Positions 12,977 to 16,035 of a stretch of DNA of 64,000 nt are shown one piece after another. This stretch comes from Gemmatimonas sp. (GTDB lineage: Bacteria; Gemmatimonadota; Gemmatimonadetes; Gemmatimonadales; Gemmatimonadaceae). The translations under genes and the position numbers were made by a program. The notes below the pieces were generated by a model. That model saw only the letters and a list, made by a program, of their open reading frames with translations, ran no database searches and had not been told where the DNA came from. Numbering within the stretch: position 1 is the stretch's first letter; each line of letters begins with the position of its first letter. The stretch is taken from NCBI RefSeq assembly GCF_027531815.1, contig NZ_JAPZSK010000010.1, positions 62,001 to 126,000 of the forward strand, given 5' to 3'.

Positions 12977-13133
12977 CAGCGTGCGTAATGCTTTTTGCTG
13001 CAAGTAACCGGCGAAGGCCGTTTGGCAGGGTCAGCCGGGTGCGAGTACCTTCCGCATATTCTCGACGCGTCGCGCGCGAGGGCATATGGACCACCTGGTC
13101 CTAATGCGAGTCCACCTTCCGCTTGCTCATCAC

Positions 13134-13688
13134 ATGGGGCTCTGCTCAGACCGCTGGATCACGCGCATGGCGCGCGAGCACGGCATGATCGAACCGTTTG
13201 AAGACCGCCAGGTTCGCCAGGGGGTCGTGTCGTACGGCGTCAGCTCGTATGGCTACGACATGCGTGTGGCGTCGGAATACCGGATCTTCACGAATGTGCT
13301 CAGCTCGATCGTCGATCCCAAGCAGTTCGACCCGAAGAGCTTCGTCGAGTTCGAAGGCGATGTCTGCATCGTGCCACCCAACTCCTTCGCGCTGGCGCGA
13401 AGCGTGGAGTACTTCCGCATTCCGCGCAACGTGCTCACGCTCACCGTGGGCAAGAGCACCTATGCGCGGTGCGGCATCATCACCAACGTCACGCCCTTCG
13501 AACCCGAGTGGGAAGGCTACGTGACGCTCGAGATCTCCAACACCACGCCGCTGCCCGCGAAGATCTACTCGAACGAGGGAATCGCACAGGTGGTGTTCTT
13601 CACCGGGGACGAAGAGCCGGAGGTCAGCTATGGCGACAAGCGGGGGAAGTACCAGGGCCAGCACGGCGTGACCCTGCCCCGCATTTAG
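13134..13688 (+). CDS. dcd: dCTP deaminase
   Basis: This 184-residue protein converts dCTP to dUTP for thymidylate synthesis. The start is set at 13134 because the protein then begins [18 protein letters not shown], which aligns with the usual beginning of this dCTP deaminase branch. An in-frame ATG at 13086 has a close GAGGG and would add 16 residues with no family match. Conserved stretches are [14 protein letters not shown] near the N-terminus, [11 protein letters not shown] in the core, and the [17 protein letters not shown] segment with the catalytic Glu. It is one of only three plus-strand genes here and is transcribed divergently from nuoA. Confidence 0.93.
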
Positions 13689-13700
13689 GCTCCGCCGCCC

Positions 13701-14339
13701 TCAGCCGCCGGCGTAGACGTAGCGCAGACCGCGGTCTTGCGCCTGCTGCAGCGTCACGATCATCGCCGGCACCACTTCCACGCCGGGGAGCAGGCTCTTC
13801 CGCGCCTCTTCGGCGAACATGGTCGTGCGTTCCCGATCGGTGCGCTGCTCGGGGGGGAGAAACCGCCCCCCCGACGCGCGAATGGAGTTGCCGCACGCCA
13901 GCAGGAGGACGTTGCGGCGGGCAAGAATGGCGACGGATTCGGTCATCGGGTTCCGGGTCCCGGGCATACCCATGACCTCGCCGACGCTCGGATACTTGGC
14001 CCACATCGCATCGTTGAAGAACCAGCCAATGGAGCGACCGTTGAGCCCGACCATGACGGTGCAATCCTGCTCGCGGATCCCGTACACGGTCTTCTGCGTG
14101 TCGAGAAATGTCTGTGCCCAGCGCAGCGCGAGCCCATCGGTGGGCATGTGCGAGTGAAATACGACCCGCTGGGTGCCCGCCACCCGCTTCATCCACGGAT
14201 CTTCCACGGTGGCCGCGCTCGCCTCGTCAGCGGCGGGTGCCGGCGCGGCGTTGAGCGCCTGGCTGGGGAGCACACCAATCGTCGCTCCGAAAGCGGCCAG
14301 ACGGCCGAGGAAATCACGGCGGGGAGTGTTGGCCATCAT
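13701..14339 (-). CDS. Tat-exported DsrE/DsrF-like sulfur-carrier-type protein
   Basis: This 212-residue protein starts with a twin-arginine signal (R-R-D-F-L-G at residues 7-12, then a hydrophobic stretch ending near residue 33), so it should be exported folded. The mature part resembles the DsrE/DsrF-like family. It has an ILARRNVLLLACGNSIRASG segment with Cys149 at the family's active-cysteine place, and a C-terminal SLLPGVEVVPAMIVTLQQAQ followed by an aromatic RYVYAGG. DsrE relatives bind or relay sulfane sulfur. The start at 14339 overlaps the stop of the upstream cytochrome gene, so the two form an operon. The ligand and true role are unknown. Confidence 0.75.
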   Translation of the reverse strand: MMANTPRRDFLGRLAAFGATIGVLPSQALNAAPAPAADEASAATVEDPWMKRVAGTQRVVFHSHMPTDGLALRWAQTFLDTQKTVYGIREQDCTVMVGLNGRSIGWFFNDAMWAKYPSVGEVMGMPGTRNPMTESVAILARRNVLLLACGNSIRASGGRFLPPEQRTDRERTTMFAEEARKSLLPGVEVVPAMIVTLQQAQDRGLRYVYAGG

Positions 14340-15151
14340 CGGGGGAGCGAGTCTGGGGAAACGCGCCGCGTGAGCAACGGGCGCGGAGGAGGCAGGGGCT
14401 TGCCGGCGCGACGGGCGGCAGTGGTGGCATAGGCGACATCGGCGGGAGGATCGCCACGCGGCCAGTCGCGCTCTTTGCCGGGGTGATCCTGACGGGCCTT
14501 GCTGAGCACGAAGGCCGCAATGTCCGCCGCTCGCTGCGCACTCAACGTGTCGACGCCGTCGAACGGCATGTTGTGCTTGAGAAAGGTGGCCAGCGTGAAC
14601 TGGCGCGCCATACCGGCGCCAATGGAGTAGCTGCCGCGCCCCCATACGGCCGGTGCATTGAGAGCGGGCATCCCCTGCCCTTCGCCCCCGTGGCACCGGG
14701 CGCAGCTGGCGGCGTACCCTTGCCGGCCACGTGTCACGCTGCCGGCAAGCTTCACGGTGTCCACCCGGTCGTGGCGAGGCCGCCCGTTGAGCGTGGCGAT
14801 GTACGCCACCATGTCGCGCATCTCGCGGGAGTCCTCGTGCAGCATCTTTCCGGCGAGGCTGCGCGCAATGCACTCGTTGATGCGCCGCTCGATCGTTTCC
14901 TCATATCCGGGACGGCTGCGATAGCGCGGGTAGCGCGACAGCGTCGCCGTCCACGGCATCGCCCGCCCGCGCGTGCCGTTCTCCAGATGGCAGCTCACGC
15001 AGCGCAGCCCATTTCCGCTGTAGGCCGGGAGCGAGTCGCGAAACGCCGAGAGCAGCGCCAGTCCACGCACCGGATCGCCGGAGCGTGGCTGCGCGCCAAG
15101 CGCCACCGGGCAAATCACGGCCAACCATACCCACCGGAGGAATCGTCGCAT
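14336..15151 (-). CDS. Dihaem cytochrome c, thiosulfate dehydrogenase (TsdA)-like
   Basis: This 271-residue protein has an N-terminal signal peptide (residues 1-20, ending A-L-G-A) and two haem-binding motifs, CVSCH at 51-55 and CARCH at 150-154. The first domain reads NGLRCVSCHLENG, then YPRYRSR, then INECIARSLAGKM with Cys94. This is the pattern of TsdA-type thiosulfate dehydrogenase/tetrathionate reductase, in which a Cys ligates haem 1. A Met (195) in NMPF is a plausible ligand for haem 2. TsdA links two thiosulfates to tetrathionate. The gene is followed by a DsrE-like sulfur protein, which supports a sulfur role. The enzyme activity itself is inferred. Confidence 0.72.
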   Translation of the reverse strand: MRRFLRWVWLAVICPVALGAQPRSGDPVRGLALLSAFRDSLPAYSGNGLRCVSCHLENGTRGRAMPWTATLSRYPRYRSRPGYEETIERRINECIARSLAGKMLHEDSREMRDMVAYIATLNGRPRHDRVDTVKLAGSVTRGRQGYAASCARCHGGEGQGMPALNAPAVWGRGSYSIGAGMARQFTLATFLKHNMPFDGVDTLSAQRAADIAAFVLSKARQDHPGKERDWPRGDPPADVAYATTAARRAGKPLPPPRPLLTRRVSPDSLPR

Positions 15152-15198
15152 GTCGCCAATATGCGGTACAACGCGCCACGCCGCAGGGGCCCCGGACG

Positions 15199-15236
15199 CA
15201 CGACGGGCGGAACTCGAAGGAGTCCCGCCCGTCGTG
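15199..15236 (-). terminator. Hairpin after sdhB
   Basis: An inverted repeat of about 16 bases (CACGACGGGCGG... / ...CCGCCCGTCGTG) has one mismatch and a 6-base loop. It begins 26 bases after the sdhB stop. No clear U-tract follows. It separates sdhCAB from the cytochrome/DsrE pair and probably ends or attenuates the sdh transcript. Confidence 0.6.
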
Positions 15237-15261: not shown

Positions 15262-16035
15262 TCAGCCCGACCCGACCGTCGCCCGCGGTTCCTGACGCTT
15301 GGCGGTGGCCAGCAGGTAGTCGCGGTTCATGCGCTTGATCACGTCGATGCTGATCTCCTTGGGACACGCCTCCTGACACTCGCCGGCCAGGGTGCAATGA
15401 CCGAAGCCCTCGAGATCCATCTGCTCCACCATGGCCAGCGCGCGCTTGTCACGCTCCGGCTGTCCCTGCGGCAAGAGCCCGAGGTGCGTGATCTTCGCGC
15501 CGGTGAACAGCGAGGCCGACGCATTGGGACAGGCGGCGACGCAGGCGCCGCAGCCGATGCACGCGGCCGCATCCATCGACTCTTCCAGCACGTCCTTGCC
15601 AATGAGAATCTCATTGGCATCCCGGGCGCCGCCGGTGTTCACCGACACGTAGCCGCCCGCCTGGATGATGCGATCGAACGCCCCTCGGTTCACCACGAGA
15701 TCCTTCACGATGGGAAACGGCGACGCACGCCACGGCTCGACGGTGATAATGTCCCCGTCCTTGAACGCCCGCATGTGCAACTGGCAGGTGGCCGTGCCCT
15801 TCCAGGGACCATGCGCCTGCCCGTTGATCATCATGGCGCACGAGCCGCAGATCCCCTCGCGGCAGTCGTGCGCGAAGGCCACGGGTTCCTTTCCTTCGAG
15901 GGTGAGCTTCTCGTTGAGCATGTCGAACATCTCGAGGAACGACATGTCGGCACTCACGCCGTCGAGATCGTACGTCTCCAGCTTGCCCGGAGCCTGCGAC
16001 GCCGGCTGGCGCCACACGTTGAGCGTGATCTTCAT
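15262..16035 (-). CDS. sdhB: Succinate dehydrogenase iron-sulfur subunit
   Basis: This 257-residue subunit transfers electrons from SdhA to quinone through three Fe-S centres. The 2Fe-2S motif is Cys58/63/66/84 in the [17 protein letters not shown] region. [15 protein letters not shown] segment and a [14 protein letters not shown] segment provide the other two clusters. The start at 16035 shares one base with the sdhA stop (TAATG). It is the last gene of sdhCAB and is followed by a terminator-like hairpin at 15199-15236. Length and motif order are normal. Confidence 0.97.

Follow-up and report, generated by a model that had tools for sequence, protein, structure and literature searches.

A conserved gene pair in Gemmatimonadota, a TsdA-like dihaem cytochrome and a predicted exported DsrE-fold protein, is probably one sulfur-oxidation unit

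Two co-inherited genes in many soil and lake Gemmatimonadota probably make up one undescribed sulfur-oxidation unit, in which a TsdA-like dihaem cytochrome c is accompanied by a DsrE-fold protein that is predicted to be exported and is distantly related to TSD, a thiosulfate dehydrogenase without haem. The partnership of the two proteins is well supported by gene order, by co-inheritance across genera and by residue conservation. The pair lies in the window, the whole stretch of 64,000 nucleotides of Gemmatimonas sp. DNA that was analysed, among the following features.

13086..13688, + strand: convergent neighbouring gene outside the unit, which we take to be dCTP deaminase-like (ORF list)
13701..14339, - strand: DsrE-fold protein of 212 aa, predicted to be Tat-exported, distant TSD relative (translation, TIGR01409, NF052225, fold match), with twin arginines at residues 7-8, invariant Trp113 and invariant Cys149
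14336..14339, - strand: ATGA overlap of the cytochrome stop and the DsrE-like start (sequence)
14336..15151, - strand: TsdA-like dihaem cytochrome c of 271 aa (translation, match to TsdA structures, PF21342, residue tally in relatives)
Cytochrome, residues ~1-20: signal peptide, Sec-type, judged by eye
Cytochrome, residues 51-55: haem 1 motif CVSCH
Cytochrome, Arg80, Arg90 and Ser98: TsdA active-site positions, from alignment with 4v2k
Cytochrome, Cys94: predicted haem-1 ligand, from alignment with solved TsdA read against PMC6879331 and PMC4423706
Cytochrome, residues 150-154: haem 2 motif CARCH
Cytochrome, Met195: predicted haem-2 ligand, with Asn194 beside it, read against PMC6879331 and PMC4423706
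15198..15236, - strand: long GC-rich hairpin, stem of 17 bp, in the 110-nt gap that separates sdhB from the cytochrome gene (RNA fold of the gap, z -3.0)
15262..16035, - strand: sdhB, part of sdhCAB, neighbour upstream of the pair (ORF list)

The cytochrome shows each of the TsdA sequence features that were examined. Its residues 26-221 are matched by TsdA structures in phmmer (4wqc, E 2e-33; 4v2k, E 1e-32), PF21342 (SoxA-TsdA_cyt-c) matches at 42.1 bits against a cut-off of 27, and a second class I cytochrome c domain is recognized by both PF13442 and PF00034 above cut-off. The two CxxCH motifs, at 51 and 150, correspond to the two-domain plan of TsdA. The best NCBIfam match is the SoxA model TIGR04484, but its 53.2 bits fall well below the cut-off of 110. 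At E 1e-30 no other TsdA-like cytochrome was found in the window genome. The AlphaFold model of the cytochrome has a mean pLDDT of 44, too low for use, and haem-1 ligation was instead judged from the alignment with 4v2k. In that alignment Cys94, contained in the segment INECIARSLAGK, falls on the haem-1 ligand Cys96 of Allochromatium vinosum TsdA, which is the placement that the original prediction had given it. Arg80 and Arg90 align with both substrate arginines of TsdA (Arg109 and Arg119 of the precursor), Ser98 with precursor Ser127, and Asn194-Met195 with Lys208-Met209; we converted mature to precursor positions ourselves, using an offset of 27 residues. Haem 1 is thus predicted to be ligated by Cys94 and haem 2 to be His/Met, with an Asn-Met arrangement like that of Campylobacter jejuni TsdA, an enzyme that carries Asn254/Met255 at haem 2 and is active in both directions (PMC6879331).

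These positions are retained among relatives. We tallied residues in 107 cytochromes, including 56 paired with a DsrE-like gene and 45 unpaired. Cys94, Arg80, Arg97, Ser98 and Met195 are invariant in the 56 paired proteins, where Arg90 is kept in 54 and replaced by Lys in 2. Ser127 is described as conserved in TsdA only and absent from SoxA (PMC4423706), and its presence as Ser98 in 56/56 paired relatives points to TsdA chemistry. Retention of Ser98 also fits an enzyme that is itself able to use thiosulfate as the second substrate. In the unpaired cytochromes residue 194 is His in 14 of 45.

The second protein carries a Tat signal (TIGR01409, 19.4 bits against a cut-off of 16.7), and twin arginines are present in all 56 paired homologues, consistent with export by the Tat route. 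Pfam offers no family for the protein, nor any DsrE-family match in 30 of its homologues, and its assignment to the DsrE fold comes from an AlphaFold model with a mean pLDDT of 86. DsrE-family structures match this model at Z 10-15, led by ST0148 (2pd2; Z 15.0, rmsd 1.4 over 107 residues), with MTH1491, YchN, DsrEFH and TusBCD among the other matches. In the model Cys149 sits at the end of a core strand, and in a profile alignment the MTH1491 cysteine falls on the same position. Cys149, described in the original prediction as conserved-looking, is found in 91/91 homologues examined, as is Trp113; that account of a DsrE-like protein with a twin-arginine signal, encoded by a gene overlapping the cytochrome gene by four bases, is likewise borne out. 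A weak match of the DsrE-like profile to T4 dCMP hydroxymethylase (24 bits over 47 residues) was considered chance. Gemmatimonadota genomes can encode up to seven Tat-signal DsrE-like paralogues each (for example in locus L002, 1378-2142, and in other Gemmatimonadaceae loci), and many of those that lie away from any cytochrome have a C-terminal CxxC.

The two families are inherited together. Among 295 Gemmatimonadota genomes of completeness >= 90%, the cytochrome model (E 1e-30) matched 133 and the DsrE-like model (E 1e-20) 131: both were present in 130, the cytochrome alone in 3, the DsrE-like protein alone in 1 and neither in 161. The co-occurrence that the original prediction proposed to look for is therefore seen in 130 of the 134 genomes with either family, and the pair is conserved well beyond the window genome. 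The corresponding Fisher value, 1e-79, takes no account of relatedness, and part of the signal is shared ancestry; the test is also somewhat weakened by leaving the partner paralogue unspecified where genomes have several DsrE-like copies, as many do. Within the family of the window, 94 genomes have both, 9 have neither, and the discordant classes number 2 and 1. Three genera contain genomes devoid of the pair (6 both and 3 neither in one, 2 both and 3 neither in another, a single genome lacking both in the third), with no discordant genome listed.

Gene order tells the same story. We examined 80 named Gemmatimonadota loci, found by way of the cytochrome. In 45 of them the DsrE-like gene comes immediately after the cytochrome gene in the same orientation, and in 4 it lies within 6 kb. 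The remaining 31 have no DsrE-like gene nearby, 7 of them having a second TsdA-like cytochrome instead. In those seven loci the two dihaem cytochromes are mostly in tandem, and when two of the tandem pairs were aligned, residue 194 was His in 3 of the 4 copies. The pair occurs after sdhCAB, near SAM synthetase, and near glycerol-3-phosphate-oxidase-like or other unrelated genes, and no third sulfur gene, nor any SoxB-type gene, recurs among its flanking genes. Because the families co-occur in 130/134 genomes and are adjacent in one order in 45/80 loci whose flanks differ, the pairing is conserved and no accident.

In the Gemmatimonas lineage the order sdhCAB-cytochrome-DsrE-dcd is itself conserved, and sdhB lies upstream of the pair in 27 loci, most of them also with sdhA/sdhC. 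We considered co-transcription of the pair with sdhCAB and rejected it, given the strong hairpin in between and the restriction of the association to this one lineage. A terminator scan that requires a U tract found none between sdhB and the cytochrome gene; the hairpin at 15198..15236 may be a terminator lacking a U tract that ends the sdh transcript. In the window genome neither SoxB nor DoxD gave a match above cut-off, and a SoxY search was also without match, but its search control matched nowhere either.

A relationship that the original prediction had missed connects the DsrE-fold protein to TSD. The NCBIfam thiosulfate dehydrogenase model NF052225 matches it with E 2.9e-10 over 83 residues, at 39.9 bits against a curated full-length cut-off of 300, and matches 29 of 30 of its homologues. 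In a profile-profile comparison (hhalign) the paired proteins align with eight NF052225-type proteins encoded on plasmids (99.4%, E 1.4e-21) over 163 columns that include the cysteine, which is conserved in 14/14 TSDs. The alignments thus indicate that the DsrE-fold protein is a distant TSD relative with homology spanning the conserved cysteine, and that TSD itself presumably has the DsrE fold. We equate NF052225 with the family of Acidithiobacillus ferrooxidans AFE_0042 because the two agree in name and size and share a neighbourhood of tsd, a substrate-binding protein, DoxD and TlpA/ResA (PMC6335251 for AFE_0042). In a tree of 91 DsrE-like proteins the TSDs form one fully supported branch and the paired proteins are scattered over several, so that the linkage with the cytochrome either has been retained, with some losses, or has several origins. 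RefSeq annotates proteins of the NF052225 type as 'transcriptional initiation protein Tat' in six plasmid records and as 'hypothetical protein' elsewhere, for example in L119 and L122.

TSD genes also keep company with TsdA-like cytochromes outside the phylum. A scan of genome contigs with the cytochrome alignment returned Gemmatimonadota loci only, judging by titles, and the spread to other phyla rests on plasmid records. Close relatives of the Bosea TSD are encoded on 24 of these, and both proteins scanned against NF052225 pass its cut-off of 300 (Bosea, 394.8 bits; Bradyrhizobium betae, 417.6 bits). The gene directly upstream of TSD in Bosea encodes a fusion with four haems, TsdA-like in its second half. 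On plasmids of Caballeronia, Methylobacterium, Burkholderia and two Paraburkholderia, a TsdA-like dihaem cytochrome follows TSD on the same strand within a few kb downstream, and each of these five cytochromes has another dihaem cytochrome ahead of it; in Bradyrhizobium betae the stretch read ends within a TsdA-like/dihaem cytochrome gene. Kozakia and Gluconobacter have DoxD with TSD in place of the cytochrome, and neither a TsdA-like cytochrome nor DoxD was found in the stretch read around TSD in Methylocella, Rhizobium and Novosphingobium. The cytochromes of the proteobacterial TSD operons keep Cys94, Arg90, Ser98 and Met195, with Lys at the Arg80 position and Phe/Tyr at that of Arg97. Thus, two unrelated 'thiosulfate dehydrogenases', TsdA and TSD, so far treated as alternatives (PMC6335251), recur as partners in two phyla. 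TsdA chemistry in general needs no such partner, since TsdA-like proteins occur on 53 plasmid records, most of them outside the 24 with TSD. Beside TlpA and DsbC, the Paraburkholderia tsd operons have an additional gene annotated as 'DsrE family protein' (166 aa; 2729-3230 of L122 and L123).

How the pair relates to known systems can now be specified. Like TsdA of A. vinosum and C. jejuni, the cytochrome has two CxxCH motifs, by alignment a His/Cys haem 1, arginines 80 and 90, Ser98 and a methionine at haem 2, with the Asn beside that methionine as in C. jejuni. TsdA has, however, been described either alone or with a second cytochrome, TsdB, whereas here the partner is a DsrE-fold protein that is predicted to be exported. 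With TSD (AFE_0042; NF052225) that protein shares N-terminal twin arginines and the C-terminal two thirds, including the invariant Cys and Trp, but it scores 39.9 bits against the cut-off of 300, lacks the longer N-terminal part and falls on separate tree branches. It has the modelled fold and the cysteine position of the DsrE/DsrF/TusD family (MTH1491, ST0148, YchN, DsrEFH), from which it differs in its Tat signal, in the lack of a Pfam DsrE match and in a folded part ~50 residues longer than single-domain DsrE structures.

We suggest that the pair encodes a single redox unit for thiosulfate and tetrathionate in the periplasm, where the cytochrome carries out the redox chemistry and Cys149 handles thiosulfonate, a proposal that we favour on balance. 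We infer localisation, substrate, physical contact and direction of transfer from homology and gene association. Electron chemistry would take place at haem 1 of the cytochrome through a Cys94 S-thiosulfonate, and the electrons would leave by way of haem 2 to the respiratory chain. The DsrE-fold protein would act on the same substrate, its Cys149 binding thiosulfonate or exchanging it with Cys94 or tetrathionate, either in delivering thiosulfate to the haem or in accepting the product. The part given to Cys149 joins two precedents, the TsdA reaction, which runs via an S-thiosulfonate on the haem cysteine (PMC4423706), and DsrE3A of Metallosphaera, whose cysteine becomes Cys-S-thiosulfonate on reaction with tetrathionate and which hands thiosulfate on to TusA (PMC4175335). 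For the pair, thiosulfonate on a DsrE-fold cysteine is a proposal only, and DsrE3A-TusA differs in being cytoplasmic, in having TusA as partner and in lacking a cytochrome. Weighing against the proposal, TsdA works alone in Allochromatium and Campylobacter (PMC6879331), 31 of the 80 loci have no partner gene nearby, most plasmid records with a TsdA-like protein lie outside the set with TSD, and the DsrE-fold protein scores far below the NF052225 cut-off. Gene order, co-inheritance and residue conservation strengthen the suggestion of the original prediction that a TsdA-like enzyme has an exported DsrE partner, and the carrier or acceptor role that the prediction gave this partner is possible.

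A bolder and distinctly less probable version, which we offer tentatively, is a two-protein thiosulfate dehydrogenase built from two unrelated enzymes, with the Cys94 S-thiosulfonate passed to or from the DsrE-fold cysteine. By extension, TSD of Acidithiobacillus and many Proteobacteria might then be an incomplete enzyme that handles the sulfur in a redox pair, the other half being a TsdA-like cytochrome or DoxD.

Alternatively, the DsrE-fold protein might itself be a TSD-like thiosulfate oxidase and the cytochrome merely its electron acceptor. Kinship with TSD favours this, as do the TsdA-like cytochromes or DoxD in TSD operons; the A. ferrooxidans TSD is reported to oxidise thiosulfate and to reduce neither horse cytochrome c nor ubiquinone, which would call for a dedicated acceptor (PMC6335251). 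We nonetheless consider it unlikely, as an acceptor would have no use for the full TsdA active site (Cys94, Arg80, Arg90 and Ser98, in 54-56 of the 56 paired loci), and the DsrE-fold protein shows no redox cofactor.

It is more doubtful still that the cytochrome is a SoxA-like conjugase that loads thiosulfate onto Cys149 of a SoxY-like carrier. SoxAX-SoxYZ likewise places a haem enzyme of the same family (PF21342) next to a cysteine protein, SoxA is the best NCBIfam match even if below cut-off, sulfur carriage is a known role of the DsrE fold, and SoxB is without a match above cut-off in the window genome. Against these stand the serine diagnostic of TsdA and missing from SoxA (PMC4423706), a partner of DsrE and not SoxYZ fold with Cys149 at the end of a core strand where SoxY has its Cys on a carrier arm, and the lack of a recurring SoxB-type gene beside the pair.

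Operation in reverse, as a tetrathionate reductase with the DsrE-fold protein either relaying thiosulfonate groups or giving protection from tetrathionate, seems very unlikely. Asn194-Met195 is as in the bidirectional Campylobacter enzyme, and DsrE3A reacts with tetrathionate and not with thiosulfate (PMC4175335), but the sequence gives no direction, introducing Lys into CjTsdA did not produce AvTsdA-like behaviour (PMC6879331), and no gene context of this kind was found. That the genes are linked by ancestral adjacency alone, with no joint function, can be set aside almost entirely: conserved order in the Gemmatimonas lineage would fit, but the pair persists in differing surroundings, within genera both families come and go together, and TSD and TsdA-like genes are linked in Proteobacteria too.

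Returning to the redox unit that we favour, the gene pair is real, conserved and apparently undescribed, built from known kinds of parts. Our searches of the open-access literature for an exported DsrE partner of a thiosulfate dehydrogenase gave no relevant result, in agreement with the original statement that no such system was known, and no description of the cytochrome/DsrE-fold pair was found there, an absence that is no proof. With TsdA-like and TSD-superfamily genes paired in one phylum and found in shared operons in a second, TSD gains a candidate for its active-site cysteine, candidates for its redox partners and, by deduction from homologues, a fold; this bears on where the electrons of TSD go. 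Proteins annotated as 'transcriptional initiation protein Tat' or as hypothetical are thereby accounted for. The Gemmatimonadota, common yet seldom studied as thiosulfate oxidisers, gain a specific and testable candidate thiosulfate enzyme.
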